Assembly: GCA_021772075.1 (NCBI GenBank)
Contig: JAETNQ010000033.1
Coordinates: forward strand, 1-43,559
DNA: 43,559 nt
Source: Lachnospiraceae bacterium
GTDB taxonomy: Bacteria; Bacillota; Clostridia; Lachnospirales; Lachnospiraceae
Reading direction: 5' to 3'
The number at the start of each line of letters is the position of its first letter. Within the stretch, counting starts at the first letter, position 1. The position numbers were made by a program, and so were the translations under genes. Positions 19,279-38,055 of the stretch are shown here, piece by piece. Below the pieces are notes generated by a model. It did no database searches and had not been told where the DNA came from. It was given only the letters and a program-made list of their open reading frames with translations.

Positions 19279-19387
19279 AATCCCCCGTCCCCTTTATCCT
19301 TGTTGTTTTTTACCAAATCTTTTCCTGTTTTTTATTATAGTCCATGACTTACCAGTCATTCAACCGCTTTTTCCCCGGTATTCTTTC

Positions 19388-19441
19388 CTACCCCTCTGCC
19401 AGCACACGGAAAGTACCCGCAAGATCCAGCCTCCCGAACCC
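19388..19441 (-). pseudogene. C-terminal 17 codons of the interrupted CspABC-like S8 peptidase
   Basis: On the minus strand codons at 19441-19388 read GFGRLDLAGTFRVLAEG then TAG. This is the standard end of CspABC-like S8 peptidases, where NREWGYGRLDLYGTF or similar follows the YPN motif. The main body (31582-32907) stops matching just after YPNRSWG. Joining TGG GGG from there to GGG TTC GGG here (sharing one GGG) gives an uninterrupted WGFGRLDL. The sequence to its right has a TAA immediately in this frame, so the fragment begins at the element boundary. Confidence 0.85.
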
Positions 19442-19447
19442 TTCTTA

Positions 19448-19581
19448 TGTCAAGTTAATGCCACAAAGTTTTTTCACTTTTTTAAGGGAAAATCCCCGGA
19501 AGCCGCATAACTTCGTTGGGGTTATGATAAGTTAATGTCAACTCCGGGGAAAATTAATGGTAAGTTAATGTCAAGTTGTTT
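19448..19581. repeat. Left end of E1: repeated TGTCAAGTT motifs and nested hairpins
   Basis: Three related motifs lie on the plus strand: TGTCAAGTTAATG (19448-19460), AAGTTAATGTCAAC (about 19529-19542) and AAGTTAATGTCAAGTTG (19562-19578). Between them TCCCCGGA/TCCGGGGA (19493-19500, 19543-19550) can enclose CATAAC/GTTATG (19506-19511, 19521-19526). The stretch 19557-19581 is repeated with three mismatches at 31396-31420. Such multiple sites resemble recombinase or transposase binding sites; which enzyme uses them is unknown. Confidence 0.65.
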
Positions 19582-19586
19582 TTGCT

Positions 19587-20492
19587 TTATATTGTCAAAG
19601 GTTCCGCCAGTCTCTCTACCTCTGCAATATCCAGCCCTGAATATTTTGCAATCTTATCAATCGGCAATTCCCCGTCCTGTAGCATTCTGAGGGCAGTTTC
19701 CTTCTTATTTTCATTCTTAATTCTTCTTGCTTCTGTCTCAATCAATGCTCCGCTCATTATTCCACCCACGCCTTTCTGCACATTTTCATACTTCTGTGCA
19801 ATTTCCTTAATTACATCACCAGAAAGTTCTATGATTGTACGTTTATCAAATGCTCCAATAATTCCTTCCTGTTCCAATTTATCAAGCCTATCCAAAATAT
19901 TCTGATATTCTGATTTTAATTCTTCTAATCGCTTCTTATCTGTATTATACACCACAAAATCCTTTTCATGTGAAAAAATATAAAATGGAATCAGCAGCAG
20001 TAAATTTTTTGAAAAAATTTCATCCAGAGAATATTCCTGCACTTTCATAATTGGCACATCATACTCTACCATACCACCGGGCGTCCTTATCACATACCGC
20101 ATTTTGTCAAATGTCTTTTTATATGTACGCAGATATAACACTGCTGTATTCGGGAATGTTATAGTCAGCGTTTCATGGGTAACCTCACCCTCATCCAATG
20201 CGATCTGGGCATCATACTCAAACAATCGGATTGTCCTTCGTCCATCCGGCAGACTGCTCTCACATTCAAGGTGGTATTTCTTCTTTTTCCGTCCGAATAT
20301 TGTAAAGTTAGTGTCTGTGATTCTCTCCTGATTCGGCGCAACTTGTTGGTCAATAAAATGTTCATTGGGATGAAACTCAATTTTTTCATTTCCTTTATAA
20401 TCTTCCCCGAATATTTCATTAATTACTGGTATAATAAATTGCCTGCAATCATTTAAAATTGTTCGGAATACCCCATCATAGATGTTCCCCAT
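19587..20492 (-). CDS. Rpn-family / PD-(D/E)XK nuclease (recombination-promoting nuclease type)
   Basis: A 301-residue protein of the family annotated as PD-(D/E)XK nuclease family transposase or Rpn. Seen: N-terminal helices DGVFRTILNDCRQFIIPVINEIFGED, the presumed metal site Asp60 in ITDTNFTIF followed by YHLECESS with Glu76/Glu78 and a nearby basic run, then YDVPIMKVQEYSLDEIF and a helical C-terminus with EGIIGAFDKRTIIELSG. Rpn proteins in E. coli are endonucleases that stimulate RecA-independent recombination; that this one does so is inference. It sits between the E1 left end and recombinase C1. E2 has no counterpart at this place, so it may be a separate later insertion. Confidence 0.75.
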   Translation of the reverse strand: MGNIYDGVFRTILNDCRQFIIPVINEIFGEDYKGNEKIEFHPNEHFIDQQVAPNQERITDTNFTIFGRKKKKYHLECESSLPDGRRTIRLFEYDAQIALDEGEVTHETLTITFPNTAVLYLRTYKKTFDKMRYVIRTPGGMVEYDVPIMKVQEYSLDEIFSKNLLLLIPFYIFSHEKDFVVYNTDKKRLEELKSEYQNILDRLDKLEQEGIIGAFDKRTIIELSGDVIKEIAQKYENVQKGVGGIMSGALIETEARRIKNENKKETALRMLQDGELPIDKIAKYSGLDIAEVERLAEPLTI

Positions 20493-20566
20493 ACTAAATC
20501 CTCCGTATCTCTTATTTCAACAATACTCTTACCGTTCTTAGAAATAGTTATAAACGTCATAACAAA

Positions 20567-22117
20567 TTATGCTTCCCGAAACTTCCACTTAATCTCCACC
20601 CTCTTATCCTTATAAACATATATCCTTTCAATAAAAGCATCCACTAATTCCTGTGTAAGTTTCTCCATATGGGAATACCGAATGATCTGCTTCATATCTG
20701 CATCCACTCTTTCCAGTTCCTCTTCCAGCACAGAAAGTTCCCCCTGCCATTCATGCAACTGCTCAGATAACAACTCTGCCTGCTGATTCAGTTCATTTGC
20801 TCTTTTGCGGTATTCATCTGGTGTCATGCCGCCTGACACATACTCCTCGTACGCTCCGTCTTTGGAAGCCTGTATCTGTTCTTGCCCTCGCTTCAGATCT
20901 GAAATCTGATTTTTTATGACAGAAAGGCGGCTCTTTCGCAATGCTCTAAATCCTTTCCCCTGACTGCCCGCTTCCCCTCTGAACATTAGTTCTTTATGAA
21001 TCATAGTCAAAACCAGTTCCTCCAGCACACCCACATGGAAATAGGTACAGCACTCCTGAATCTGAAGCAGTGCATGTTTACTGCACTCAAACCGCCTGTA
21101 TTTATTTTTTTCACGCAGCGGCTTGTATACCATAGCATATTTACACCCACCACAGTATAATTTCCCGGTGAGCGGATGTTTTTCCCTTTTTCTGTCCGTC
21201 ACATGGTCTGACCGGAATGACGACACCTGCCCATAGACTTCCGGCGTGATCAGCGCCTCATGATGGTTCGGAATCACCTTCCATTCCTCTTTTGGTATTC
21301 TTACAGAATTTTTGCTCCCCACTGACTTACATACTGTTTTCCCATACGCCATTTCCCCAAGATAAAAACGATTATTCAAGATGTTCCTAACTGCTGAAGT
21401 ACTCCATGTACGAGTTTTCCCCTCCTTTTGATCCTTGTCAGGCTGCCGCATCTTCATAATTGTGGGAATCCCTTCCTTACAAAGCTGCCTTGCTATCTGC
21501 GTACTGCTTTTTTGCTGCATTGCAAGTGAAAATATATGCTGCACAATTTCCGCTTCTTTCTTATTAACAATGACCTTATTTTTTTCTACAGGGCTTTTCA
21601 TATAGCCAAAGGGAACCTGGCCAAAGACATATTCCCCATTCGCACACTTATTTTCAATAGACGCTTTTACCTTGACAGAAATGTCCTTGCTGTACAGGTC
21701 ATACAGAAGCGTTTTGAATGCAGTATCAATCCCTATGGCACTCCCATTATCCTCTCTGCTGTCGTAGTGGTCGCCCAATGCAATAAAACGAATGCCCATG
21801 AAAGGGAAAATCTGATTTAAATAGGTACCCATTTCAATGTAATCCCTTGAAAAGCGGGACATATCCTTCACGATAATACACTGTATTCTGTTTTTCTTTA
21901 CATCGGCTAAAAGCTGGTTCAGCCCCGGCCTGTCCAGCCCTGTGCCGGACCAGCCATCATCACAGAACTCCTTTATCTCATATTCCTTTAATTCTGCATC
22001 CTGTCGGATAAAATCCCTGATCAATAGTCTCTGGCTGGATATGCTGTTGCTCTCATCCCTTTCGAAATCCTTTTTATCCTCCATCGACAGCCTTAAGTAC
22101 ATCCCTATGATATTCAC
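20567..22117 (-). CDS. Large serine recombinase C1 (third of E1 triplet)
   Basis: A 516-residue site-specific recombinase. Seen: resolvase domain with the nucleophile Ser11 in MYLRLSMED, IIVKDMSRFSRDYIEMG; recombinase domain with VPFGYMKSP and NNRFYLGEMAYG; zinc ribbon CGGCKYAMVYKP followed by more cysteines (FECSKHALLQIQECC); and a C-terminal coiled coil rich in Glu/Gln. Starts at GTG 22117, overlapping the B1 stop (GTGA), so it is translationally coupled. Its closest relative in the window is the 516-residue protein at 33030-34580. No frameshift or missing catalytic residue is seen. Confidence 0.93.
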   Translation of the reverse strand: MNIIGMYLRLSMEDKKDFERDESNSISSQRLLIRDFIRQDAELKEYEIKEFCDDGWSGTGLDRPGLNQLLADVKKNRIQCIIVKDMSRFSRDYIEMGTYLNQIFPFMGIRFIALGDHYDSREDNGSAIGIDTAFKTLLYDLYSKDISVKVKASIENKCANGEYVFGQVPFGYMKSPVEKNKVIVNKKEAEIVQHIFSLAMQQKSSTQIARQLCKEGIPTIMKMRQPDKDQKEGKTRTWSTSAVRNILNNRFYLGEMAYGKTVCKSVGSKNSVRIPKEEWKVIPNHHEALITPEVYGQVSSFRSDHVTDRKREKHPLTGKLYCGGCKYAMVYKPLREKNKYRRFECSKHALLQIQECCTYFHVGVLEELVLTMIHKELMFRGEAGSQGKGFRALRKSRLSVIKNQISDLKRGQEQIQASKDGAYEEYVSGGMTPDEYRKRANELNQQAELLSEQLHEWQGELSVLEEELERVDADMKQIIRYSHMEKLTQELVDAFIERIYVYKDKRVEIKWKFREA

Positions 22118-23859
22118 CCGACCACTCCTTCCAACATCTCATTTACATACCGAAACTGCATCTCAACCCGCTTTCCCGGATAGACATAAAGCTTCTCTAT
22201 CAGTGCATCCACAAGTTCTACAGTCAGTTCTTCTCCCTTTTTCTTCAATAAGCCATCCTGCATGGCAGGGCGGTGTTTGATTTTCAGCAAGGAACGCACC
22301 GCCTTCAAATACTTTTCCTGTACTTTTTCCAGACCTTTCCGTTTCTCTTCTAGTTCTTCCGCCAGTTTTTCCAGTTCCCGCCTGCTAGTCTCCTGCTCCG
22401 TTTTAAAACATACATATTCTTTCTGCGGCAGCTTTCCTTCCCGGTAGTTCCTATATACCTCTGCCTCTTTTTCCTCTATTCTCTGCCTTCTGCCATGGAC
22501 AGCCTTCAGTTCCTTTTCCATCTGGAACGCAGCTGTACGCATCTGCTCCTTTCCTGCTTCCATAAAGCGCTCCGGCTTATCCAGATAAATACCAAATTCC
22601 TTATGAAATACAGCCATCAATATACCCGCCAGTTCCTGTTTGGAAATATGGTTTGGCTGCGGGCAGATCTCTACTTTACTGCTGCCTCCATTCAGGCAGT
22701 AATATCCTTCCTGCCTTGCCTTTTTCCCGTCTGCATAAGTTTTTGCATGGCTATATCTTGTCATTTTCTTACCGCAGACGCCACAGTAAAGCACATGATG
22801 AAACACATTTTCCCCAATAGGAATCCCCTCCGCAGGGTGTTTGTGAGATGCGGATTCTTCCTGTTTTTTTCTTCGTACTTCCTGTGCTTTATGATAAAGT
22901 TCCATACTTATCAACGCTTTATGGACATTTTCTTTTACCAGCCATTCCTCTTTTGGCTTATGGATACGGTTTTTTTCATTACGGGCGGTTATTGTACTTT
23001 TTCCCTGCACCAGTTGTCCGACATAAGTACTGCTTTTAATGATCCGTTCCACAGCTCCTCTGTCCCAGCCCCTATATTCCATATCTGGCGGACAGTATAC
23101 TTCCTTTGTCTTTGCATAGACTGCCGGGGGATTGATCCTCCTGCGGTTTAAATCATCCGACACTTCTGTGCAACTTTCCTTTTCCACAAAAATCTTGTAA
23201 ATATGTTCCACAATTCCCGCAGTATTTTCATCCGACACTAACTTCCTTACTTTCCCTTCCCAGACCGCTATATAGCCATAAGGCGGCAACCCGCCTACAT
23301 AGGAGCCTGCTTCCCTGCGCTGCCTAAGTCCAGTCTTTGCTTTTACGGAAAAATCCTTCGCATACATATCATTGACAAGGTTCTTTATTTCTGCCGCCAT
23401 AGCGGTTGACATCTGCCTTGTGTCATTTCCCTTCTCCCCTGTGTCATATCCGTCAGAAACAGCGATGAACCGCACTCCAAGAAATGGGAATATCTTTTCT
23501 ATGTAGTTGCCTGCTTCAAGATAATTCCTGCCGAATCTGGACAAGTCCTTCACAATTACACAGTCAATATCCCCCAGCCGAATATCCTGCAGCAGCCGAT
23601 TAAAACCGTCCCGGTTGAAGTTGCTGCCCGTCTTTCCAAGGTCACAATAATACCCGACTATATCAATTGCTTCCTTATTTTTCTGGTTGAACTCTTTCAC
23701 GAATTTTTCAGCAATTCCTCTCTGCACATCGATGGATTCATTCTTTTCATCTGCATCAGCAGAAAGCCTTGCATATATTCCGGCCTTATATCTTTTCTGC
23801 CCCCTGGCTGCCGCATTCTCTACTCCATTGGACCTGCCTCTCTTTGAAATTCTTCCCAT
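22114..23859 (-). CDS. Large serine recombinase B1 (second of E1 triplet)
   Basis: A 581-residue recombinase from the ATG at 23859 (MGRISKRGRSNG), chosen because GGGGTG precedes it and A1 stops two bases before; the frame is open further to 23976 but that would lie inside A1. Seen: catalytic Ser33 in GIYARLSADA, GKTGSNFNRDGF, IVKDLSRFGRNYLEAGNYIEK, the recombinase domain with GGLPPYGYIAVW, zinc ribbon CGVCGKKMTRY with later YYCLNGG and CPQPNH, and a charged coiled-coil region at about residues 450-530. Most like the B2 protein at 34577-36259. Confidence 0.92.
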   Translation of the reverse strand: MGRISKRGRSNGVENAAARGQKRYKAGIYARLSADADEKNESIDVQRGIAEKFVKEFNQKNKEAIDIVGYYCDLGKTGSNFNRDGFNRLLQDIRLGDIDCVIVKDLSRFGRNYLEAGNYIEKIFPFLGVRFIAVSDGYDTGEKGNDTRQMSTAMAAEIKNLVNDMYAKDFSVKAKTGLRQRREAGSYVGGLPPYGYIAVWEGKVRKLVSDENTAGIVEHIYKIFVEKESCTEVSDDLNRRRINPPAVYAKTKEVYCPPDMEYRGWDRGAVERIIKSSTYVGQLVQGKSTITARNEKNRIHKPKEEWLVKENVHKALISMELYHKAQEVRRKKQEESASHKHPAEGIPIGENVFHHVLYCGVCGKKMTRYSHAKTYADGKKARQEGYYCLNGGSSKVEICPQPNHISKQELAGILMAVFHKEFGIYLDKPERFMEAGKEQMRTAAFQMEKELKAVHGRRQRIEEKEAEVYRNYREGKLPQKEYVCFKTEQETSRRELEKLAEELEEKRKGLEKVQEKYLKAVRSLLKIKHRPAMQDGLLKKKGEELTVELVDALIEKLYVYPGKRVEMQFRYVNEMLEGVVG

Positions 23860-23860
23860 C

Positions 23861-25543
23861 TTATGCACCCCTTTCCGCACCATGCTGGACCGGCTGCCGC
23901 ATACTGATCCCCAGCATGACCTCGTACTGATCCATAAAATAGTATTCAATTTCAATCCGCCTTCCTTCGTATACATAAATGCGCTTCACAAGGCTGCTCA
24001 GGGTATGGCGGTCAATCTCTTTTAACTCCACACAATCCTGAAATGCTTTCAGTCTTCCGGCAGAGAGGATGCCCTTTTTAAACATTTCCCTGATTAAAGT
24101 TTCCTGTCTCTCCTGTGCTTCCCCTAATTCAATAGCTTTCTTTTCAAAACCGGCATGGAGCCGCCCGAACTCTTCCTTCGTCACAACTCCTTTCCTCAGA
24201 TCATCATGCAGTCCCGCGCAGAGGCTGTAGTATCTGTCCTGTTCTTCTTTCAGGCGCCGCAGTTCCCTGTCATATGCTGAAACTTCTGAAAAACTGCCCG
24301 TCTCCTGCTCCTTTGCCTTATCAAAAAGGCGTTTTCCCTCAAAGAATGCGTTGGCATACTTTTTTACCGTATTTTCCACAAGCTCTTTCAGCACCTCTTC
24401 CTCTATACTATGCCTGCTGCATCCGTCTCCCCGGTTCTTTGTGGAACAGATATAATAAATCTTTTTCTTCCCTTTATAACGCACTACCCGGCGCACCATC
24501 TGCTCCCTGCAGTCGCCGCAGAATAAAAGCCCTGAAAACAAACCGGACTTCTCCATTCCCGGCCCCAGCCTGCTGTCTGACTTAAGAAGGTTCTGCACAA
24601 TCTGGAAATCATCCTCCGTAACCAGCGCCTCATGGGTATTCTCCACACATACCCATTCCTCCCTGGGCTTTTCCACGATCTTTTTTACTTTATAATTGAC
24701 CTTCTGTGATTTTCCCTGCTGGAGGTGCCCTAAATAAATCTCGTTAGTCAGTATCCTTTTTACAGAAGCATTTCCCCAGAGGGATTTTCCCGCTCCTTGG
24801 AATCCCCCGTTGTAATTAAGCCCAAGGGATTTCTTATACTCCTTAGGCGAAAGGATACCCAGCTTATTCAGCTTTTCCGCTATGGCTGACACTGCCATGC
24901 CTGCAATCTTCCACTCAAAAATATGTCTCACAATCCCAGCCGCATATTCATCTACTACAAGATGGTTCTTATCTGTTTCATCTTTCCTATACCCATACAC
25001 TGCAAAAGCGGAAATGCACTCCCCATTCCTGCGCTTCACTTCCAGACCGCTCTTTACCTTCGTGGAAATATCCCGGCAGTAAGAATCATTAATAAAGTTC
25101 TTTACCGGCAGTACAATAGATCCGGTTCCCGTATCTGCCGAAAAACTGTCATAGTTATCCGTCAGTGCAATAAAACGCACGCCAAGAGCCGGGAAAGTTT
25201 TCTGGATATATCTTCCGGCCTCAATATAATCACGCCCGAAACGGGACAGGTCTTTTACAATCACGCAATTTACCCTGCCCGCCTCAATATCACTCATCAT
25301 TCTCTTAAATTCCGGTCTGTCGAAATTACTGCCCGAAAATCCATCGTCAACATAGATATCATACAATTCGATATCCTGCTGCTCATGGATATAGGCTCTG
25401 ATCAGCTCGCGCTGGTTCCCGATACTCTCGCTCTCGGTCTTTACAGATGCCTGCCCTCTGCTGTCTTTTGCGCTGCCGCCACTGGCAGTATCATCCCGCG
25501 AAAGACGAAGGTACATAGCCGCATAGAATCTATTTTCTTTCAT
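23861..25543 (-). CDS. Large serine recombinase A1 (first of E1 triplet)
   Basis: A 560-residue recombinase, first gene of the A1-B1-C1 run. Seen: catalytic Ser15 in AMYLRLSRDD, VDDGFSGSNFDRPEFKRMM, IVKDLSRFGRDYIEAGRYIQK, recombinase domain with SAFAVYGYRKDE and EIYLGHLQQGKS, zinc ribbon CGDCREQMVRRV with ICSTKNRGDGCSRHS, and a C-terminal coiled coil. Very similar throughout to A2 at 36260-37912. Serine integrase triplets have been described for some streptococcal ICEs; how the three subunits divide the work is, to my knowledge, unsettled. It begins 115 bases after the DUF6870 gene on the same strand. Confidence 0.93.
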   Translation of the reverse strand: MKENRFYAAMYLRLSRDDTASGGSAKDSRGQASVKTESESIGNQRELIRAYIHEQQDIELYDIYVDDGFSGSNFDRPEFKRMMSDIEAGRVNCVIVKDLSRFGRDYIEAGRYIQKTFPALGVRFIALTDNYDSFSADTGTGSIVLPVKNFINDSYCRDISTKVKSGLEVKRRNGECISAFAVYGYRKDETDKNHLVVDEYAAGIVRHIFEWKIAGMAVSAIAEKLNKLGILSPKEYKKSLGLNYNGGFQGAGKSLWGNASVKRILTNEIYLGHLQQGKSQKVNYKVKKIVEKPREEWVCVENTHEALVTEDDFQIVQNLLKSDSRLGPGMEKSGLFSGLLFCGDCREQMVRRVVRYKGKKKIYYICSTKNRGDGCSRHSIEEEVLKELVENTVKKYANAFFEGKRLFDKAKEQETGSFSEVSAYDRELRRLKEEQDRYYSLCAGLHDDLRKGVVTKEEFGRLHAGFEKKAIELGEAQERQETLIREMFKKGILSAGRLKAFQDCVELKEIDRHTLSSLVKRIYVYEGRRIEIEYYFMDQYEVMLGISMRQPVQHGAERGA

Positions 25544-25658
25544 ATACGCATCACTCCTGACTTTTATGTTTGGCTCGCATAAAAAACCTTAAGCCAGGTG
25601 CAACACTGATTTAGTCCTGACTATATATTATCATAAATTTTCATTTTTTCCAGGCCGG

Positions 25659-25952
25659 TTATACATAAACTTCTGCAAGTCTGCGTATATATTCTTCCAT
25701 CTTCTCATCTATGGTGGAACCTTCTTTCTGGTAACATACTTTCACCACATAATCCCCAATCCTGTTAACATACAGGTTTCTGGTCTGTTTTGCAAAAGAG
25801 GCCAGTTTCTTTTCCACCGGTGCCTTTGTATCTATTACTATATCCCTTAAATCCGTCAATGTACCAATGTCCACTGTCCGCACATCTACCGCTGCCATCT
25901 CCCTTAGTTCCTCTGGTGTAAGCCCTGCCAGTACCCCTGCTGCAAGTCCCAT
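25659..25952 (-). CDS. DUF6870 family small protein (copy 1)
   Basis: A 97-residue protein. Seen: LTPEELREMAAVDVRTVDIGTLTDLRDIVIDTKAPVEKKL pattern (positions 11-50) and RIGDYVVKVCYQKEG near 67, as in DUF6870 proteins. AAAGGAG precedes the ATG. A paralog (38056-38325) precedes the second recombinase triplet at a similar distance, so it belongs to the cassette. Small size and fixed position in front of the integrases suggest a regulator, directionality factor or accessory subunit; that is inference, and no DNA-binding motif is obvious. Confidence 0.75.
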   Translation of the reverse strand: MGLAAGVLAGLTPEELREMAAVDVRTVDIGTLTDLRDIVIDTKAPVEKKLASFAKQTRNLYVNRIGDYVVKVCYQKEGSTIDEKMEEYIRRLAEVYV

Positions 25953-25989
25953 AGCACAATCATCTCCTTTCCCGTATCTCCCAGCTTTG

Positions 25990-26210
25990 TGCGAAGCTTT
26001 AGAATTTCTTGGTCCGCGTATTTTTCGGACTTAGAAATTCTCTTCGCACTTCTATCCTATTCCTTCATCTGATTGTCCTATGCCTGCACCTGTTCTCTTA
26101 TTACTATGAAGCAAAGCAGAAACCCGGTGAAACTGCGCTTTGCTGGGAATTGAACAAAATCGCTATGCCACAGCCTTTACAGGCCATCGCGCAGCGATTT
26201 TGTTCAATTC
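25990..26210. repeat. Cluster of three inverted repeats upstream of DUF6870 copy 1
   Basis: (i) TGCGAAG and AGAATTTCT (25990-26009) pair with AGAAATTCT and CTTCGCA (26033-26048), extended by GTCCG/CGGAC. (ii) GCAAAG and CAG in 26111-26119 pair with CTG and CTTTGC around 26133-26143. (iii) GAATTGAACAAAATCGCT (26147-26164) and its exact 18-base inverse (26193-26210). None is followed by a T-run in the direction of the helical-repeat gene, so they are not typical terminators. Recombinase binding sites or a structured leader are possible. Confidence 0.8.
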
Positions 26211-26257
26211 TAATTTGCTTACGATCCACACAATAAATACGCAGACCTACTAAAGAG

Positions 26258-27724
26258 TTATGCAATAACATACTTTATATCAAATTCAATGCCCTTTCTT
26301 ATGTCTTCCGGTATGGTATCTGTCTTTTCCTGCAATATATCACAAATTTCCTGTGCTTGTTTTGTCGATATTCGTACATACATATTCCGTGTGCTGATTG
26401 CCCCTTGCAAAGCATTTTTTAAGGATTGAGGCAGATTTTCTTTTCCATATAATCGTAAAACAAATGGAAGCCGCTCCCAAGATGGCTCTCTTAATAGCAG
26501 TTTCAGCAAATAATACCCTAATTGTGTATTTTCTTTCTCCAAATAAGCCTGATACAAAGTAGTCGCTCCATAACAGATATTATATTTCTGAATCATCCGA
26601 TAAGCTCTTACTGAAATCATCTGACGACAATCAAATAAATACTTCCAATAAAGTTTTTCGCCTTCCTGCGCTGCCAGCCTTCCATATGCCTGCAAGGCTG
26701 CGGCAACAATATGATCATCATCTGCTCCTAAAAATGTTTTGATAAGCTCTATTTCCTGTCTGTTTCCATACTCACTGATACCAAGAATTGCTATACTGGT
26801 TACTTTTTCTTTGAGTTTTTTCTTATAATAATCAAGAATAGAAAAATCCGAATGCTTTTTCAGCAAATAGCTTACATAGTCCCGTATTCTTCTGGACTTA
26901 TCCATCAGCATAACTTCTATTCCAGACCAAATATTATCCTGTTTTTCATATCGGTAAAGCAAAGCATAATAACGAATAATTGGACTCTTGCTCTGTAGAT
27001 ACTGCTGTATCTGTTTCTCATCACATTCATAATGCTGCAAAATACCACGAATCAATAGCGTCTTACCATAGCCTGTCTTTTCCAGCACAAGCAAATGCTT
27101 CATGCTATGCGCATCCAATATTCTGTTTTTACTAACAATACGATAAATAGCATTCTTTATGTTTACATCATAGGTATGTATCTCATCAATTGGCGTAACA
27201 GATATTTGGGCAGATAGTATTGACTGAACCTTTTTCTCTATCTGCAGCATATAATCATCACTTCGTCTTCTTGAATCTTTTACCTTTGCAAACATGGGTA
27301 ATGCTTCAAATAATTCACATATTCCACATGACTCCAGCTTTTTTTGTACCAACACAAACGCGCTCTCACGAATAGGGCTTACCCAGTCGTTTAATCGCAG
27401 CATAATAAACGAAAGCGTTCCCTCATATGACGCCAATGCTTCCATACATTTCTGTCGATAGTAGCCATTACCATGAAAAGTTCCAAGCTTCAATACGGTC
27501 AAATATTCAATATCATTTAGTCTCGGTAGCTGTTTTCTGCCTATGTTTACCTTCCGCCAATCTATATTCCATGCCATATCAATATCGCCACGCCACCGTT
27601 CTCCCATTCGAATCAGTTGTTTGGGCGTGATATCTGCAAGCTGGCTTGTATAGGTTCCTGCAATTTCATATGCATATATGGTAAAATTCTCTTGATTCTT
27701 TTTAGAGCCTTGATTCCATATCAT
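26258..27724 (-). CDS. Protein of unknown function, helical (HEAT-like) repeats
   Basis: A 488-residue cytoplasmic protein I do not recognise. The sequence is almost wholly alpha-helical, with repeated hydrophobic helix pairs such as SIAILGISEYGNRQEIELIK and HIVAAALQAYGRLAAQEGEK (residues about 330-380 of the protein), resembling HEAT-type protein-interaction repeats. The centre has many Lys/Arg. Start at 27724 is favoured over 27775 because AAAGGTGAT lies just upstream. Codon use and base composition are AT-rich, unlike the left half of the window, suggesting transfer with the element. It is followed by the hairpin cluster and then DUF6870, all on the same strand. Confidence 0.65.
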   Translation of the reverse strand: MIWNQGSKKNQENFTIYAYEIAGTYTSQLADITPKQLIRMGERWRGDIDMAWNIDWRKVNIGRKQLPRLNDIEYLTVLKLGTFHGNGYYRQKCMEALASYEGTLSFIMLRLNDWVSPIRESAFVLVQKKLESCGICELFEALPMFAKVKDSRRRSDDYMLQIEKKVQSILSAQISVTPIDEIHTYDVNIKNAIYRIVSKNRILDAHSMKHLLVLEKTGYGKTLLIRGILQHYECDEKQIQQYLQSKSPIIRYYALLYRYEKQDNIWSGIEVMLMDKSRRIRDYVSYLLKKHSDFSILDYYKKKLKEKVTSIAILGISEYGNRQEIELIKTFLGADDDHIVAAALQAYGRLAAQEGEKLYWKYLFDCRQMISVRAYRMIQKYNICYGATTLYQAYLEKENTQLGYYLLKLLLREPSWERLPFVLRLYGKENLPQSLKNALQGAISTRNMYVRISTKQAQEICDILQEKTDTIPEDIRKGIEFDIKYVIA

Positions 27725-27914
27725 TTTTATCACCTTTATAATTCTTAAATTACCTGATTCTTTCGAGCGAATCATAAAAAAGAAATTTCATGTCTATTAC
27801 CCCTCAAATCCCGACTTGTCACTCCTCAACATAGCACAAAGCAGGCAATAAATATATCGGAATCATTTCAGAAATCGATTCACCTGCCACTGCTTCTTCC
27901 CAAAACAAGCTAAT

Positions 27915-28658
27915 TTAATCGACAAGCATGGACTTAACGATTCTTATGTCTTCTTCCGAAACCGCTGCATCAAGAAGATATTTTTCTGCATCTCCCCATT
28001 TTTTCTTTAAATAGTCGATAGCTGTTTCCATTTGAAAACGTTCCGAAGAAAAAGCACTATCCGGCACATCTATGCCATATTTTTCTTTTATCATAACTTT
28101 TTGTTTTTCAAAAACTGTATGCATATTGCTTTCTGTAACTTCATAATCGACTAAAATTGTTTCACTGTCAACTCCAGCAAGATTCAGAAGCAGCATTGCG
28201 GTCACACCAGTTCTGTCTTTACCGGCTGTGCAATTAAAAAGATTGGTACTATCTTTATGTTGTGCAAAAATATGAAACATCTTACCAAAATCTTTGTGGG
28301 AATGGTTTAATAAATCAATATAAACCGTTCCCATATTATCCGGCATTTTACCATGAAACCCCTGTGAAGTTGTCTGGTCCAGCATCGGAAGTGAATAATA
28401 GTCAATTTCCGGTATGAACCTTAAGGCATTTGGCATGAAATTTACTTCTGCTAAACTTCTTAAATCAACAACACACCGGACTCCATAATCCAATAAAACT
28501 TTTTTGCCGTGATCCGTTATTTGCGCTGGTAAATCAGAACGAAGAAAAGCATGCATTTTCGTTGTTTTACCATCTTTTGTTTTGTATCCGCCCAAATCTC
28601 TCGTATTAAAAGTTGTATCAATTTTAAGCGGCTTTGAAGCCGTAATTTCTGTATCCAT
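27915..28658 (-). CDS. Tyrosine-protein phosphatase (Y_phosphatase3 type)
   Basis: A 247-residue cytoplasmic cysteine phosphatase of the family that includes Listeria LipA-like and mycobacterial PtpB-like enzymes. Seen: NTRDLGGY at residues 18-25, RSDLPAQITDHG, VVDLRS, and the P-loop CTAGKDRT with the nucleophile Cys143 and Arg149. Substrates may be phosphotyrosine proteins or phosphoinositides; unknown here. GGGAGAAG is upstream of the ATG at a slightly long spacing. It stands between the truncated DUF4317 gene and the helical-repeat gene; the 190-base gaps suggest separate transcripts. Confidence 0.88.
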   Translation of the reverse strand: MDTEITASKPLKIDTTFNTRDLGGYKTKDGKTTKMHAFLRSDLPAQITDHGKKVLLDYGVRCVVDLRSLAEVNFMPNALRFIPEIDYYSLPMLDQTTSQGFHGKMPDNMGTVYIDLLNHSHKDFGKMFHIFAQHKDSTNLFNCTAGKDRTGVTAMLLLNLAGVDSETILVDYEVTESNMHTVFEKQKVMIKEKYGIDVPDSAFSSERFQMETAIDYLKKKWGDAEKYLLDAAVSEEDIRIVKSMLVD

Positions 28659-28737
28659 ATGAATGCTTCTCCCTATAAATATCCAATTCCATTGATATAA
28701 TCATCATCTGCTTTCAGCAGGCACGCAACTCCCAAAA

Positions 28738-29385
28738 TCATCTGTATGTTTCATGCTGTGAAAAAAGGATTTTCCTCAAGTCCTCTGCCTGATTTGACTG
28801 CCCGTCTGCCGCATAAATATCAATCCTGTGTATGTCGCTGCTCCTGTCCTTAAATGCCGGGAACAGGAAACCGCACTCCGGCTTCCCTGGTTCATAATCA
28901 CCATTTACCGGACAGACCGCACAGATCAGGAACTGATAAACCTCTTCCGATTCCCACAGGCTTTCCTTATCGCTGGCTTTCAGCGGCACGTCATAACTGC
29001 CATGGAAAAAGTAAATGGCATAACTGCCATCCGTCCGGTATCTCTGCCCAAACTCCTCATAGAATACATCCAGCATTGCATCATTTTTCAGCCCGCATTC
29101 TTTCAGTGCCATAAGCAGCTGCCATATGCTCCCCGGTTTCCTGTCCGCTTCCCCGAGAACATACTCCCTAAGCTGCACATTTGTATCGGAAAAAGGAACT
29201 GCCTTTGCTATATCAAGATTTGCCTGCTGGTCTTTTTGTGACAGTTTCTGGAAATGCTTGTTAAAGGTTCCGTCCACAAACCCCTCTTCGTCCAGATATG
29301 CCCCGGCGATCCTGTCAAAACAGTTCCGCTTCAAAGTCATGCGTCTGGTCAGTTCCAGCATATCTTCACGGTTGATCTTTCCCAT
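28738..29385 (-). pseudogene. DUF4317 protein, C-terminally truncated
   Basis: A 215-residue product whose first part matches DUF4317: MGKINREDMLELTRRMTLKRNCFDRIAGAYLDEEG, with the later YAIYFFHGSYDVP block. Family members are usually about 380-400 residues; this one stops after a normal-looking strand at HETYR, so about 170 residues are missing. The start at 29385 has GGGAG upstream, and homologs begin at this Met rather than at 29433. The function of DUF4317 is unknown. Likely decayed cargo of E1, though a natural short form cannot be excluded. Confidence 0.7.
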
Positions 29386-29815
29386 ATATATCCATGCTCC
29401 CTGTAAAATGCCGCCGCATATCCGATCCGACATGCGGCAGGCCTCTTCATACTGTTTTTTACTATGGAAAAATTATACTGTAATTCCTCTGAAAAGGCAA
29501 TGACCATGAAAAAGGAATTTCCGCTCTTTGTCTGGACGATAAGGAATCGAGTAGGAGGGGGATTTGATAATCATAGCTATCGTGGCACAATCCAAGAGAA
29601 ATCTGCACCACCATAAATGAAACTATGCAAGCGATAGATTATTGAAGAAGAACTTCTTTCTGGCAGCGTTCCGGTGTTTGCGCCCCGCCTTATTCTGACC
29701 GGTTAGAAGTTTCATAAATCAGGCTTCGTATTTTACATACTTTTTACATACAGTTTATCCAATATTGGTAGTGCTTTTATGATTGATTCTGTAAAATCAG
29801 ATTGGAGGTGGAAAA
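29386..29815. other. 430-base gap without a recognisable gene
   Basis: No supported gene on either strand. Near its right end TTTTACATACTTTTTACATAC (two copies of TTTACATAC at about 29734-29752) could hold a plus-strand -35 region, but no good -10 follows. A near-perfect ribosome binding site GGAGGTGG (29803-29810) ends the gap. Confidence 0.6.
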
Positions 29816-29917
29816 ATGGGCAAAAAGAATAAAAAGAAAATTTTAAAACAAAAAAATTTTGTACTGAAGAAAGAAAATAGACAATTCTTCACAGTATCTG
29901 ATTTCGCTTGTAAATGA
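29816..29917 (+). pseudogene. Truncated 33-residue lysine-rich leader ORF fused out of frame to kinase remnant
   Basis: ATG with GGAGGTGG at ideal spacing encodes MGKKNKKKILKQKNFVLKKE and ends at TGA 29917. From about 29870 the DNA encodes a histidine kinase in a different frame. So this is probably the true 5' end of a gene whose middle was deleted, joined out of frame to the kinase. Confidence 0.5.
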
Positions 29918-30506
29918 TATTTTGGATATGAGCCGGATTGAAAGCGGAAAGATGTCTGCAAATTATGAACCGTTTGATATACGGAAGGTTATTGACAGGT
30001 GCGCTCTGATCACAGAAGGACTGCTGACGCAGAAAAATGTGGAGCTTGTTAAAGAATTTGCCGCATTTGAACATCCCCTGCTGATTGGCGACGAACTGCG
30101 CTTGTGCCAGATACTTGTCAATATTTTAGGAAATGCCGTTAAATTCACTCCGAATGGAGGGCGGATTTATTTTCAGGTAAAAGAATATTCTGATAAGTCC
30201 GGTAAATCACTCTGCCATTTTGAGATAGAGGATACCGGAATCGGCATGGAATCTTCTTTTCTAAACAAGATATGGGAACCTTTCATTCAGGGGAACGGCA
30301 GAAGTCATAATGAACCTGTTGGCACAGGTCTTGGGATGGCAATTACCAAAAGGCTGGTTGATCTAATGAACGGCACGATAACAGTGAAAAGCGCGCTGGG
30401 AGTCGGAAGCAAATTTACAAAGGTATATTTCAGTAAAGACACTGATAAAACCTTTAAGGACAGAGTGCAAAAGCTGATTATTAATGATGTTGTCAATATT
30501 AGTTAA
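29868..30506 (+). pseudogene. Histidine kinase remnant (dimerisation helix end + HATPase domain)
   Basis: Open frame 29868-30506, with no proper start (first candidate TTG at 29922). Seen: SSQYLISLVNDILDMSRIESGKM, the second half of a HisKA dimerisation domain without the phospho-accepting His; then a complete HATPase_c domain with N-box VNILGNAVKFTPNGG, G1 IEDTGIGM, F-box WEPFIQ and G2 GTGLGMAITKRLVDLMNG. The product stops shortly after the ATPase domain, where hybrid kinases would continue into a receiver. Missing sensor, phospho-His and receiver mark it as broken. Confidence 0.75.
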
Positions 30507-30654
30507 CACTTTTTTTGCAAGGATATCATGCCTAAGCAGTATCCGAAGATTCATAGCGATATTGTCCGTAATCCATGACAGGAATTAAATCACACTGTTT
30601 CTGTTTACCCGGTATTGCTTGTTTCAGCTCCCAGAAAATGAATTTACTGTTAAT

Positions 30655-30698
30655 TTTTCGTGCAGAATATTGTATTTTCCGTGCAGACAGCATATACT
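30655..30698 (+). promoter_or_regulatory. Promoter and direct repeats before relB/yafQ
   Basis: TTGTAT (30670-30675), 17 bases, TATACT (30693-30698). Overlapping it are two direct copies, TTTTCGTGCAGA (30655-30666) and TTTTCCGTGCAGA (30675-30687), likely sites for autoregulation by the antitoxin-toxin complex. Confidence 0.55.
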
Positions 30699-30728
30699 GT
30701 AATCATCAGCAAGAAAGGAGATGGTTAT

Positions 30729-31007
30729 GTGGCTGGCTCTACTACAAACATCAGCATCCGCATGGATTCAGACCTGAAAGCGCAGGCTGACAGGCTGTTC
30801 GGGGAACTCGGCATGAACCTGACAACGGCATTCAATATTTTTGTCCGTCAATCCCTCCGTGAGGGGCGGATTCCTTTTGACATCTCCCTCAATCAGCCCA
30901 ACAGCGAAACGGTTGCCGCCATGCTGGAGGCAGAAAGGATTGCGAAAGATCCGGCAGTAAAAGGATATACCGATCTGGACGAACTGTTCGCAGACCTGAA
31001 AGCATGA
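30729..31007 (+). CDS. RelB/DinJ family antitoxin
   Basis: A 92-residue antitoxin. Seen: the ribbon-helix-helix start TNISIRMDSDLKAQADRLFGELGMNLTTAFNIFVRQ, which binds the operator, then a C-terminal tail with YTDLDELFADLKA that would wrap the toxin. Start chosen at GTG 30729 because AAGGAG lies eight bases before it and homologs begin here; the frame is open to 30660. It overlaps the toxin gene by four bases (ATGA), the usual coupling of these pairs. Probably stabilises E1 in its host. Confidence 0.9.
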   Translation: MAGSTTNISIRMDSDLKAQADRLFGELGMNLTTAFNIFVRQSLREGRIPFDISLNQPNSETVAAMLEAERIAKDPAVKGYTDLDELFADLKA

Positions 31008-31294
31008 AGAACGCAAAGTATACCGTCAAGCCCACCACACAATTCAAGAAAGATTACAAGCTGGCAATAAGACGCGGGCTAGATATCAGGCTGCTGGAGG
31101 GCGTGATCGCCGACCTTGCCATGGGGATCCCCCTCCCGGAGAAAAACAGGGACCACGCCCTGTCCGGGAACTGGATCGGACACCGTGAGTGCCATGTGCT
31201 GCCCGACTGGCTGCTTATCTACCGTATTGAAGATGATGTTCTGGTGTTAACCTTATCCCGGACCGGATCGCACAGCGATCTGTTTGGGAAGTGA
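31004..31294 (+). CDS. YafQ family mRNA interferase toxin
   Basis: A 96-residue RelE-fold toxin that cuts mRNA on the ribosome. Seen: QFKKDYKLAIRRGLDI, PLPEKNRDHALSGNWIGHRECHVLPDWLLIY and the end LSRTGSHSDLFGK. His51, His64, Asp68 and His90 correspond to the catalytic residues of E. coli YafQ (H50, H63, D67, H87), so it should be active. It is followed by a terminator. Confidence 0.92.
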   Translation: MKNAKYTVKPTTQFKKDYKLAIRRGLDIRLLEGVIADLAMGIPLPEKNRDHALSGNWIGHRECHVLPDWLLIYRIEDDVLVLTLSRTGSHSDLFGK

Positions 31295-31306
31295 TTTTAT
31301 CTGTCT

Positions 31307-31339
31307 CCGTATGGGGTGTTTCCCTGTACGGCGTTTTTT
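31307..31339 (+). terminator. Rho-independent terminator of the toxin-antitoxin operon
   Basis: CCGTATGGGG pairs with CCCTGTACGG (two G-U pairs) around a TGTTT loop and is followed by CGTTTTTT, 12 bases after the yafQ stop. Confidence 0.8.
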
Positions 31340-31395
31340 CTGATTTGTAGTTATCACCCCTTTTTGGCACACGCTTTACAACACCAAACGGCTTG

Positions 31396-31581
31396 ATGGT
31401 ATATTAGTGTCAAGTTGCTTGGTTTTCGGTTTTCTGGTTACAAACAGGCCCGTCCTTATCTAATTTTTCCATTTTCAATATGTCGAAAATATTTGCACGG
31501 CAGTTTTTTCATAGGACTAAATCAGCGGAAGCCCTTGATTTTACTGGCTCCTTGCTAACTTGACACTATATTGCCATACGC
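31396..31581. repeat. Right end of E1: inverted TAGTGTCAAGTT arms and direct repeat of the left end
   Basis: TAGTGTCAAGTTGC (31405-31418, plus strand) and GCTAACTTGACACTA (31554-31568) are inverted copies bounding about 164 bases, like a miniature inverted-repeat element. 31396-31420 matches 19557-19581 at 22 of 25 bases in the same orientation. The outermost 16 bases (31566-31581) lie between the TGTCAAGTTA arm and the GGG of the peptidase gene. No gene is seen in this stretch. Confidence 0.65.
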
Positions 31582-32907
31582 CCCCCAGGAACGGTTTGGA
31601 TATATGATATCCGCGCTGCGGGCCGCCCCCCGCACAAAATATGCTTTCACCTCCATGCTCTGGGCAAGCACATCATTTCCTTCGATCACCGCCCACTGCA
31701 TAAACTGAGCTGCTCCGCCCGCCGTAATAGCGGCGGCCATACAAGAGCCGGTCCGCGCCCCCAGTACCGTCGATACATCGACTCCCGGAGTTGCAATATC
31801 CGGCTTCAGCCTCCCGCCTCTGGCAAACCCTCTGCCCGAATCGATATAAAAGCTATTATTGCCCGCATCATAAGCGGAGACCGTGATCACATTATCCGCC
31901 AGAGACGGTTCCGTCAGCGTCACATACGGCGTGGAATTCAGGAAGTATACGTCGGTCTTCAGAAACGGGGTGATCGGCAGCCACATATTGATATAGCCAT
32001 AGCCAATGCTCCCTTGTATCTCGATACGAAAAGTCCATACTCCCGCAGTCGGCTGCACGATCCGGAAGACCACCAGCTCATCCCCCCCGCCCTGTTCTAC
32101 CAAAATATGATCCACCGCAATCCGCGTTTTTTCATAAATAAAGCTGAAATTCCTTGTTTCCCGGCTCCTGAAATCAATATACGGAATGACTTCCCCGCCC
32201 GGAGAACGAATCGATACACTCATCGTATTCGGGACGGTTCCCCACAGCTCCATCACAAAACCCGGTTCGTCATTCCCCACTCGTATTTCTGCCGTCTGCA
32301 TTACCGCAGCGCCTTCCATGGGAAAAAGCCTTTGGAAATGATGTCCCGCATTTCCCTCGTTCCCTCCCCCCACCACTACTACCCGGTTCCGCTTTCTGGC
32401 AATCCGGTCCAAATATCTTGCCAGCACGGAATTACCGGCATGATCTCCCCAGTTTGTCCCCATGCCGATGCATATGACCACCGGCCTTTCCCTCACTTCC
32501 GCAAACTGATCCAGGTATTTCAATGCCATGCCGATATTCGCATCGCAATAAGCCGGCACGCCGTCCGGTATCAAATAATAATCCCTCAAATATCCCTTTG
32601 CTTCCTTGCATTTTACCATCACGATATCCGCATCCGGCGCTGCTCCCCCAAAATTTATTCCGAACCCGGCACTGCTTCCCGCCGCCACGCTGGCTACAGC
32701 CGTTCCATGGCCGTCCGTATCCGTAGAAGGAACCACCGACAACGGATCATCGCTTCTGACCGCCTCGTTGATCTGCTCATTCGTATATTCCGTCCCAAAG
32801 GAAAAACCATCCGGCGGGGTTCCGTCCTGTATCGTCTGGTCCCAGATCGCCAATATTCTCGACGTACCGTCTTGATTCTTAAAAACATCCAAATTATAAC
32901 GTATCCC
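31582..32907 (-). pseudogene. CspABC-like S8 (subtilisin) peptidase, main body, interrupted at both ends
   Basis: The open frame runs 31555-32952 (465 residues), but peptidase-derived sequence spans 31582-32907, from GIRYNLDVFKNQDGTSRI to YPNRSWG. Seen: catalytic His82 in DTDGHGTAVASVAAG; oxyanion-region VVVGGGNEGNAGH; the large beta insert typical of CspABC-like enzymes; and GARTGSCMAAAITAG, where the canonical GTSMA nucleophile position holds Cys404 instead of Ser. The segment with the catalytic Asp (D-S/T-G-I) and about 100 residues before it are missing; only its Gly remains, at the E2 junction. The C-terminal 17 codons are 12 kb away (19388-19441). Related Csp proteins act in spore germination; some are pseudoproteases. 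As it stands it cannot make an intact enzyme. Confidence 0.85.
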
Positions 32908-32913
32908 CTCTCC

Positions 32914-32954
32914 TGTCAAGTGTCTGCAAGCAAATTTTTTATCTTTTTTCAAGG
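32914..32954. repeat. Left end of E2, homologous to left end of E1
   Basis: Aligned without gaps to 19448-19488: 30 of 41 bases agree, including TGTCAAGT, a TGC, and TTTTTT-N3-TTTTTT. T-runs inflate the score, but the distance to the gene's GGG (six bases) is the same in both. Confidence 0.65.
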
Positions 32955-33029
32955 TTTTTCCAGTCTTACTGCTCCAAAAAGATACCTGCTGTTAAACCAT
33001 TGCTTCAATATCCGATCTTTCTTGTAAAA

Positions 33030-34580
33030 TTACTGCAAAACATTTTTGCTGGCAGGTTTCAATCCTGCACTTTCTTTCCAGTAGATTTCCATATGCTGTT
33101 CATCATAGACTTCAATCTTGTCAAGATACTTCTCTACCATCTCTTCTGACAGCTCCGCAAACCGGCCCCCTGAATACTCCGCTTCCCTGCCACACTTTAT
33201 AGCGGAATGCTCGGCTTCCACTTCCTGGAGCCTGTCATTTATGCCGGCTAATTCTTCCTCCATTGATTTTAACATCAATCCGTCAGATTGAAACCTCCCT
33301 GTTTTCCCACTGGCATACTCCTGATAGGCTTCAAAATGATTCTGTTTCATCCTTTCTATTCCGGAGTGCAGAATCCTTCTTTTCTCTTTCAGCTCCCTGA
33401 TCTTCCCGTCCAGCCTGGCCATTTCCTCCATACGGAGTTTTTCCAGTTCCCCCTCTTCCTCCAGTTTCTCCTGCATCATCAAAAGAACATACTGTTCCAC
33501 AAACATAGCGTTTAGCTTCCGGACACAGTTTTCCATGTTATTTGAATAGCTGTAGTGGCAATTAAAATATGGGTTCATCCCCCTGCGGTAACGTAGATTT
33601 TTCTTGCAGCAGCCGCACACCAGCTTTCCCACAAGCGGATGTGTCTGGTTATGCTTTGGGGTTCTTTTGTTCCCCCTGCTCTCCTGCACCTGATCAAACG
33701 CTGCCTTTTCAATGATCGGTTCATGGTGCCCATAGGAGACCAGCCAGTCTTCTTGGGAATTCAAATGATTTTTTCCGCCCACAAAATCCTTTGTATACTT
33801 TTTCTGCACAATATTCCCGATATAAATTTCATTCCGGAGTATCTGGCATATGGTGCTGCCGCTCCACAAAAATCTGCCCCCTTTTGGTATCCGGTTCGTT
33901 CTTCCCTTATCAATCTTAAATTCAATCGGTGTCTTTACCCTTTCCTTGTTAAAAAGCCTTGCGATCTGCACCGACGTCCACCCATCCAGCGTAAGGGAAA
34001 ATATCCGCCTGACTACCGCCGCTTCATCTTCGGCAACCAGCAGCGCATGCCTGTCCCCCGGGGCCTTTTCATAACCGAATGGGCTGTTTGCGCTTACATA
34101 CTGCCCCTTTTCCTTCCTTATGGAAAGGGAAGAGCGCACCTTGCCCGACAGGTCCCTGCTGTACAAGTCATAAAGCAGGTTCTTAAAATTCATGTCAATA
34201 TCAGCAGCGCCACCCTGCGCTTTGGCGCTGTCATATCCGTCATTGACAGATATAAAACGAACGCCAAGAAATGGGAAAATCTGCTCAAGGTAGGAGCCCA
34301 GCTCAATATAATCCCTGGCAAACCTTGAAAAATCTTTTACGATGATACAGTCAATCTCACCGTTTCTTATCCTTTCAAGCATTTCCTGCATGCCCGGGCG
34401 GTCAAAATTGGTGCCTGTATAACCGTCATCACAGAACTCAATGATCTCATAGTCCGCAAACTTTTCTTCTATGTATCTTCTTAAGAGGATACGCTGCATG
34501 GCGATACTGTTACTTTCTTCTTTCCATTTGTCATCCTCTTTGGACAGGCGGAGGTATATTGCGACCAGGTATCTTTTCAT
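33030..34580 (-). CDS. Large serine recombinase C2 (third of E2 triplet)
   Basis: A 516-residue recombinase, the same length as C1. Seen: catalytic Ser13 in AIYLRLSKED, CDDGYTGTNFDRPGMQEML, IVKDFSRFARDYIELGSYLEQ, recombinase domain with NSPFGYEKAPG and NEIYIGNIVQKK, zinc ribbon CGCCKKNLRYRRG with FNCHYSYSNNMENC, and a C-terminal coiled coil with MARLDGKIRELKEKRRIL. Overlaps the B2 stop by four bases (ATGA). Its stop is 122 bases from the E2 edge, whereas in E1 this gap is over 1.1 kb and holds the Rpn gene. Confidence 0.93.
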   Translation of the reverse strand: MKRYLVAIYLRLSKEDDKWKEESNSIAMQRILLRRYIEEKFADYEIIEFCDDGYTGTNFDRPGMQEMLERIRNGEIDCIIVKDFSRFARDYIELGSYLEQIFPFLGVRFISVNDGYDSAKAQGGAADIDMNFKNLLYDLYSRDLSGKVRSSLSIRKEKGQYVSANSPFGYEKAPGDRHALLVAEDEAAVVRRIFSLTLDGWTSVQIARLFNKERVKTPIEFKIDKGRTNRIPKGGRFLWSGSTICQILRNEIYIGNIVQKKYTKDFVGGKNHLNSQEDWLVSYGHHEPIIEKAAFDQVQESRGNKRTPKHNQTHPLVGKLVCGCCKKNLRYRRGMNPYFNCHYSYSNNMENCVRKLNAMFVEQYVLLMMQEKLEEEGELEKLRMEEMARLDGKIRELKEKRRILHSGIERMKQNHFEAYQEYASGKTGRFQSDGLMLKSMEEELAGINDRLQEVEAEHSAIKCGREAEYSGGRFAELSEEMVEKYLDKIEVYDEQHMEIYWKESAGLKPASKNVLQ

Positions 34581-37912: not shown

Positions 37913-38055
37913 TCCACGTATCTCCTAACTTTATTATTTTCCAAGTTAGCAAAACCTGTCCTACGAGGTCTGTATCTTTTCATAAAGTCAGGATTCCGTT
38001 GATTTTTGTCCTTTCTATAGATTACCACAGTTCCTGACGCCTGTAAAGGCTTTTG

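Follow-up and report, generated by a model that had tools for sequence, protein, structure and literature searches.

The stretch of DNA analysed here, called the window throughout, is the whole of contig C98 (43,559 nt) from a Lachnospiraceae bacterium whose 3.48 Mb genome is assembled in 103 contigs. It carries an S8-family peptidase gene that is cut twice, by one element near its end, after the residues WG (the C-site), and by a second element after the residues DTG (the N-site), which we take to be the catalytic-Asp motif of the gene. Each element bears a triplet of genes for large serine recombinases (LSRs), and in this and related genomes the type of triplet goes, with one exception in 15 cases, with the site at which a peptidase gene of this family is interrupted.

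The split gene and its junctions

The pieces of the gene and the ends of the two elements lie as follows.

19388..19441, minus strand: 3' piece of the S8 gene, the last 17 codons GFGRLDLAGTFRVLAEG and the stop, with identical residues in the intact orthologue of genome G015
19439..19458, minus strand: right attachment site (attR) of the C-site element, arm TTAACTTGACA, then TAAGAA and the core GGG
19442..31584, minus strand: C-site element, 12,143 bp, its exact ends ambiguous inside a G run
31555..31586, minus strand: left attachment site (attL) of the C-site element, a six-G run (31586-31581) and the arm TGTCAAGTTAG (31565-31555)
31582..32908, minus strand: middle piece of the S8 gene, family residues ~113-556, without stop or frameshift
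32905..32926, minus strand: right end of the N-site element, ACTTGACA, GGAGA and the core GGGG, followed by ATACGTTAT of the gene
32905..43559, minus strand: portion of the N-site element on this contig, apparently running off the contig end
contig C17, 1-5060: other end of the N-site element, with RepA_N/DUF6017, ParB and ParA-like genes

The S8 frame in the window (31555-32952, minus strand) matches the family only from residue 112-113 onwards; the residues ahead of ~113 (MKKDKKFACRHLTGE) are element-derived, and at the opposite end the frame reads ...YPNRSWG to 31582 and then continues with element-derived AYGNIVSS and a stop. A search of the host genome with the N-terminal 115 residues of the orthologue gave a single place, C17:5396-5052, which holds the N-terminal piece (the first 112 codons, 89% identical) and rules out a single split of the gene. 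There the gene breaks off at GATACTGGGG, after which AGCGTGTTATTATATTGTCAAGTTAG follows, and in the window CACTTGACAGGAGAGGGG precedes the middle piece. The break on C17 is at the same type of left end as that of the C-site element: in both host elements the left end reads TATA(G/T)TGTCAAGTTAG, and the right end reads ACTTGACA followed by six (C-site) or five (N-site) bases and a G run. The N-site element is seen at its two ends only, both contigs stopping inside it.

An uninterrupted gene is present in G015 (Lachnospiraceae bacterium 28-4), as a 578-residue open frame, 92% identical, with the end YPNRSWGFGRLDLAGTFRVLAEG. In BLASTN comparison, positions 11315-11402 of its locus (L033) correspond to window 19352-19441 and positions 11400-12725 to window 31582-32907, so that the two blocks share exactly three bases, GGG, with a repeat period of 12,143 bp; GGG is present at both C-site junctions, a very short direct repeat containing GG. 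The first-pass annotation, made from the window alone, had proposed an S8 gene split by a 12.1-kb unit, and the tail at 19441-19388 (minus strand), the body to 31582, the empty site in G015, the GGG overlap and the repeat period all bear this out. The tail belongs to the same gene and not to another peptidase, as anticipated, all 17 of its residues being those of the G015 orthologue, and between SWG and RLDL the expected residues are found, intact congeners reading WG(F/Y)G(R/Q)L. The same annotation erred in taking the body for the rest of the gene, overlooking the missing first 112 codons on C17.

The protein is, on sequence likeness, CspABC-like, and we do not call it CspB or CspC, because the scores of the window piece against the NCBIfam models are far under the cut-offs (CspBA, 226.5 of 1250 bits; CspC, 206.1 of 675 bits) while eight distinct Csp-type sequences of solved structure align with residues ~95-568 of the intact orthologue at E 1.8e-50 or better, the likeness to the CspB/CspC germination proteases (PDB 4i0w, 6mw4 and others) being one of alignment. 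The S8 domain of the window piece is over the Pfam cut-off. As for the catalytic motifs, the Ser motif region reads TGSCMAAA in the main gene and TGTSFAAP in the paralogue (L003 and the window S8 gene), and the G015 Asp motif is ICTG in place of IDTG; with these motifs the main gene is presumably pseudoprotease-like.

Four Gs stand at both N-site junctions. The N-site glycine codon in six intact congeners is GGT, GGT, GGT, GGG, GGA and GGA, of which the common part is only GG. Conservative exchange at GG would yield an in-frame gene at both sites, to judge from the sequences of relatives and not from that of this strain.

Two further observations concern the ends of the C-site element. Past the left arm (window 31480-31560), ~35 bases (CCAGTAAAATCAAGG..TTCCGCTGATTTAGTCCTA) are kept in most of ten aligned S8 ends, and parts of this stretch also occur in element ends with other targets. 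Near the right end (window 19442-19620), TTGACATTAACTT and variants of it occur several times in direct order, possibly as extra binding sites. Beside the tail, a gene for a 1077-aa HSP90-like ATPase lies between it and a chemotaxis gene in the window (16045-19278) and elsewhere in G015 (L033 3966-7124), a change of gene order of which the C-site element is not the cause.

Recombinase triplets and their insertion sites

The recombination genes of the two elements are these.

20567..22117, minus strand: LSR, outer position (C) of the C-site triplet, with Resolvase, Recombinase and Zn-ribbon domains
22114..23976, minus strand: LSR, middle position (B) of the C-site triplet
23861..25543, minus strand: LSR, inner position (A) of the C-site triplet
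25659..25952, minus strand: triplet-linked DUF6870 small protein (PF21757)
33030..34580, minus strand: LSR, outer position (C) of the N-site triplet, its Zn-ribbon score under the Pfam cut-off
34577..36259, minus strand: LSR, middle position (B) of the N-site triplet
36260..37912, minus strand: LSR, inner position (A) of the N-site triplet
38056..38325, minus strand: DUF6870 protein (PF21757) of the N-site element

The three LSR genes adjoin one another in one orientation near one end of the element, and Resolvase and Recombinase domains were found by Pfam in all six LSRs of the window. We consider it highly probable that such a triplet integrates into the CspABC-like gene at a GG core. The 12,143-bp mobile element would have entered the WG|FGRL codons when its own triplet carried out strand exchange between the attB of the gene and the attP of the circular element, at a core containing GG; a sister element, whose triplet is a different one, would integrate likewise at DTG| of the same gene; and the triplet family would be divided into at least three site types, each bound to a particular glycine codon that is conserved in the CspABC-like family. 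We infer from sequence the conservative exchange, the ability to excise, which recombinases act and a role for DUF6870, possibly that of a directionality factor, for which it is a candidate; no literature on DUF6870 was found among open-licence PMC articles. Upstream of the DUF6870 gene, several of ten elements show, by eye, ATAGGACA and then, ~14 bases on, a TA(T/G)AAT-like box, a spacing that is unusual.

Exchange at a GG-containing core, as the first-pass annotation suggested, is supported by the adjoining LSR triplet and by the GG-GG repeats (TGGG/GGGA) of the Tn1806-like triplet integrative and conjugative elements (ICEs; PMC12942858). Its further view that no bases are gained or lost holds only if exchange falls inside the G run; the junctions themselves carry six Gs (left) and three (right), and the empty site of the orthologue five. 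Precise insertion stands, the 17 codons rejoining in frame, and removability of the C-site element is something we infer from anatomy and homology; removing the 12.1-kb unit alone would nevertheless leave the gene unrestored, because the second element separates its first 112 codons.

Comparable interruptions recur. Our tally stands at 29 junctions, spread over 22 numbered genomes: the C-site (WG|, or VG| in paralogues) accounts for 12, the N-site (D(T/S)G|) for 10 and a third site, the M-site (EWG| or QWG|), for 7; the number is a lower bound, made up of model matches and of breaks seen directly, one source being the best matches listed. Three further N-site right ends occur in the named records L077, L089 and L091, which may be the same genomes as some of the numbered ones. 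The family tail follows in frame after each of five further C-site right ends (G015, G303, G003, G012 and G212). Both ends lie on one contig for four elements, namely those of the window (12.14 kb), G212 (~11.95 kb), G312 (~8.2 kb) and G015 (~82 kb). That the window arrangement is an assembly chimera, as the division of the genome into 103 contigs might suggest, is ruled out by this recurrence in independent assemblies and in the three named records, and the pieces of the flank 13070-19441, including the part beyond the tail to 19352, match G015 DNA; we regard the likelihood of a chimera as negligible.

A sequence-only model built from ten left ends gave 16 matches in 8 of the 16 members of the genus and matches in 59 of 397 members of the family, and 8 of the 16 genus genomes have one or more interrupted S8 genes. 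The matches outnumber the 45 loci that were fetched (L102-L146). S8 genes account for 22 of these loci; the remaining 23 fall in genes of other kinds or in stretches without assignment and rule out an element family confined to S8 genes. Outside the training set, all 13 left ends with E<=1e-14 are in S8 genes; for one of them, L123, the assignment comes from reading a 40-residue frame at the junction. In this same locus (G235:C12) the short junction frame and the N-terminal part of the S8 gene (query 7-109) are on opposite strands, which suggests an inversion beside the element.

Among LSR sets that could be assigned to a site, type matches insertion site in 14 of 15 cases. The N-site type is found in the host, L077, L089, L091, G312 and the paralogues of G010 and G004; the C-site type in the host, G212, G012 and the paralogues of G015, G303 and G003; and a third type, that of the M-site, in G014 only, linked across two contigs. 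Some triplets among the 14 are incomplete, and the G004 case consists of two LSRs together with a left end, all on a single contig. When 48 LSRs of these genomes, the streptococcal ones discussed below not among them, were placed in a tree, the proteins clustered by triplet position, A forming one group (100/99), C one group (100/96) and B one side of a fork (92/63, midpoint root). At each of positions A, B and C the N and C types are single-branch groups with support 99-100/99-100, and the S8-directed rows form one group per position (100/100, 99/96 and 100/98), outside of which stand four triplets with other, unplaced targets (12 rows). Left out of the tree were B_G015parC, the LSR of L055 in G013, and the partial or missing LSRs of L077 (A), G312 (B), G010 (A, B) and G004 (C). 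The C-site LSRs of G015 and G303 are nearly identical, and their hosts belong to different genera.

Several points weigh against this account. In the fifteenth case, a G013 paralogue, the LSR at an N-site right end (L055, G013:C157, 2075-3322) is at most 29% identical to the LSRs compared (best 25 rows). This exception perhaps comes from a nested element, an insertion that is possible because the stretch between the LSR and the N-site right end resembles, by eye, the end of the host N-type LSR gene. The match list of the left-end model is biased, the insertions used for training being in S8 genes, and 23 of the 45 fetched loci are outside S8 genes; the next match past the 1e-14 line (G033, 1.4e-14) is outside S8, and the diverged left ends of G010, G312 and G404 were missed. 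Beyond the four elements complete on one contig, ends lie mostly on separate contigs and are paired solely by gene identity. Finally, G-run length is not equal between the C-site junctions, and the empty site is known from the G015 orthologue, with no excised circle and no empty site from the same strain.

Related element ends were also observed in genes of other families. Ten non-S8 tails compared with Pfam gave two aldo/keto reductases, one SecA, one flavodoxin, one Gate domain (under the cut-off) and five without match. Element ends with a different core lie in aldo/keto reductase genes at L109 and L117 (Pfam) and at L131 and L138 (by eye), that of L117 (C63:41-110) being in the host genome itself. 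An SpmA/nucleoside-recognition (Gate) like gene carries a related end at CTPAG (L113, Pfam, under the cut-off; L114, by eye), a SecA gene at MKTG| (L130, Pfam) and flavodoxin-like genes at GYAG| (L112, Pfam; L136, by eye).

The remaining genes of the C-site element are the following.

19587..20492, minus strand: open reading frame (ORF) of 301 aa, without Pfam or NCBIfam match at E 0.001
26258..27775, minus strand: cargo, ORF of 505 aa, without Pfam or NCBIfam match at E 0.001
27915..28658, minus strand: cargo, tyrosine phosphatase family protein (PF13350)
28738..29433, minus strand: cargo, DUF4317 fragment (PF14199, positions 2-159 of 370)
29922..30506, plus strand: cargo, histidine-kinase-type ATPase domain (PF02518), probably a fragment
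30660..31294, plus strand: cargo, RelB antitoxin and YafQ toxin pair (PF04221, PF15738)

No relaxase or type IV secretion gene was found among the ORFs of the C-site element given to Pfam, and no phage structural gene among its Pfam matches. Inside the N-site element a 1292-aa surface-like protein, open at the contig end (window 39681-43559), has no NCBIfam match.

Fate of the interrupted gene

Several C-site left ends add a short in-frame tail and a stop (AYGNIVSS, ADGIIVSS, DYVIIVSSS), and in G012 and G303 the frame continues further. Such tails with their early stops would be expected if the C-site element only swapped the last 17 residues for AYGNIVSS, the protein still working and the site having been chosen as harmless. 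We find this quite improbable: the lost segment WG(Y/F)GRLD.. is conserved as far as a solved Csp protein, insertions at the N-site and M-site cut the protease core, and in the window the N-site element takes away the first 112 codons anyway.

With a 465-residue query, two S8 genes of this kind were found in the host, and both are broken, the main gene at the N and C sites and a paralogue on contig C94 at the M-site. At C31, C64, C73 and C97, out of the host LSR places C31, C64, C73, C76 and C97, the stretches read held no S8-type triplet for the M-site. Apparently the C-site of the paralogue is interrupted as well, in a tandem arrangement on C55: a C-site-type right end at ~8670 is followed by last codons of a paralogue, and another at ~359 by a second tail that differs slightly from the first.

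L187 (G000:C55), ~359-400 and 8670-8717: tandem C-site-type right ends, with tails GWGALCVENSLPR and GYGALCVEDSLPG

Methyltransferase-like and IS66-like ORFs are visible by eye between these ends, and the arrangement looks like an accreted, decayed composite; the 20 kb read at C55 contain no LSR, and the paralogue piece between the M and C sites was not found in the host.

The middle piece of the main gene shows no decay. Compared with G015, the ratio of nonsynonymous to synonymous substitution rates (dN/dS) is 0.066 over 442 codons, and, polarised with four relatives, nonsynonymous and synonymous changes number 6:30 on the host line and 6:29 on that of the intact G015 gene; the same picture would be expected after a recent insertion. 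The gene parts of the aligned interrupted copies are likewise without stop or frameshift, the stops in G010:C111, G013:C157 and G014:C3 lying beyond the junctions.

In 14 of 15 congeners (G010 is the exception) the start of the main gene is preceded, at a distance of 52-91 bases, by a sigma-K-type motif, AC-N16/17-CATANNNTA, against a background of 68 matches in 1.88 Mb of strand, or 0.0054 expected per 150 bases; the 14 congeners are related and thus do not represent independent events. The strict motif was found in 5 of 15 more distant loci and upstream of the paralogue in none of nine genomes. Several paralogues are preceded by a CATATAAT-like box, as judged by eye. Neither AC-N16/17-CATANNNTA nor a CATANNNTA box occurs within 250 bases upstream of DUF6870 in any of 10 elements. 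In C. difficile the -35 element is AC for sigma-K and ATA for sigma-E, the -10 elements being very similar, and the csp operon and spmA are mother-cell sigma-E genes (PMC3789822). Since the sigma-K-type motif stands upstream of it, the main gene may be expressed in the mother cell, and the motif points to a compartment in which excision would cost the element nothing, because the mother cell dies.

Given these observations, integration by LSR triplets might be ordinary selfish integration, in which a conserved dispensable gene serves as a harbour, is inactivated in carriers and is left by excision for transfer only. We find this quite plausible and would neither back nor dismiss it. It agrees with the hsdM, traG, mutT and snf2 genes broken by streptococcal triplet LSR elements (PMC4701971, PMC12942858), with the seemingly tolerated loss of at least one S8 gene in half of the genus members (8 of 16) and with the non-sporulation genes that are also targets of related elements. 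The intact reading frames of the interrupted copies and the unrelaxed selection on the host middle piece speak against it, although recent insertion would explain both.

Alternatively, both elements may be developmental gene-intervening elements, excised in the mother cell during sporulation so that the gene is rebuilt at the time its product is required, in the manner of skin in sigK and gin in gerE. This is possible, and we advance it tentatively; it is an addition to integration by LSR triplets and does not contradict it. The motif before the main gene in the congeners would fit, as would the sigma-E control of csp and spmA in C. difficile, the related element end in the SpmA-like gene (its Pfam score under the cut-off), the Spo0A and Gpr matches in the host (that to Gpr spanning 7-239 of 353), the like purifying selection on the split middle piece and the intact copy, and the broken state of both host S8 genes found. 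The scarcity of the strict motif before the paralogue and in the more distant loci, and its absence upstream of DUF6870, do not fit; moreover, recent insertion could account for an undecayed gene, and the aldo/keto reductase, flavodoxin and SecA genes that carry related ends are non-sporulation genes.

Known systems and implications

The closest likeness is to the triplet-serine-integrase ICEs of streptococci (Tn1806-like and others), in which three LSRs likewise lie in a row at one end in the same orientation to the target, group by triplet position and split a target gene, with repeats of 2-8 bp (PMC4701971, PMC12942858); for the Tn1806-like ICEs a transfer assay and PCR of the excised and circular forms have been reported (PMC12942858). 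Unlike these, the elements described here have a CspABC-like S8 target at three codons and two elements in one gene, and the window element is 12 kb long with no conjugation gene recognised; the linkage with DUF6870 may be a further difference. The two systems are likened by description and not by sequence. The gin element in gerE of Bacillus cereus ATCC10987 is also non-phage and has three serine recombinases, and the gene that it interrupts is a sporulation gene. Its operon comprises girA and girB, with girC at a separate place, and excision in vitro is the work of GirC together with GirX; its excision during sporulation was shown, whereas the S8 elements are known from sequence alone (PMC5595907). 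Excision of skin from sigK (C. difficile, B. subtilis) and of SP-beta from spsM rebuilds a mother-cell gene, and in C. difficile skin the LSR gene adjoins the 3' piece of sigK (PMC5025042); unlike the present elements, skin and SP-beta are prophage-type, use a single recombinase and other genes, and have proven regulated excision (PMC5025042, PMC4191935). The yin element in yabG of Clostridium botulinum lies inside a protease gene as well, in its case that of a spore protease, but it is prophage-like and the protease is a different one, the likeness again being one of description (PMC10747680).

Among open-licence PMC articles we found none on elements in csp or S8 genes, and the available portion of PMC6907783 holds nothing on triplets. 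LSR triplets that split genes are already known; the target family and the three-site specialisation with matching LSR types appear to be new, as does the fact that the few S8 genes of a single genome carry several insertions.

We suggest that the elements tie a little-understood recombination module of three serine recombinases to a single protein family, LSR type and target codon corresponding almost without exception, and that these natural variants make the role of each recombinase and the evolution of site choice directly testable. A more far-reaching view, that triplet elements have radiated, specialising on three codons of one protein family, and have become built into sporulation, such that working germination would need several mother-cell excisions, we think rather unlikely. 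If excision is developmental, germination-protease-like genes would join the short list of spore genes that are cut and rebuilt at the DNA level, with several cuts per genome, and genes of this kind that annotation calls truncated may possibly be rebuilt.

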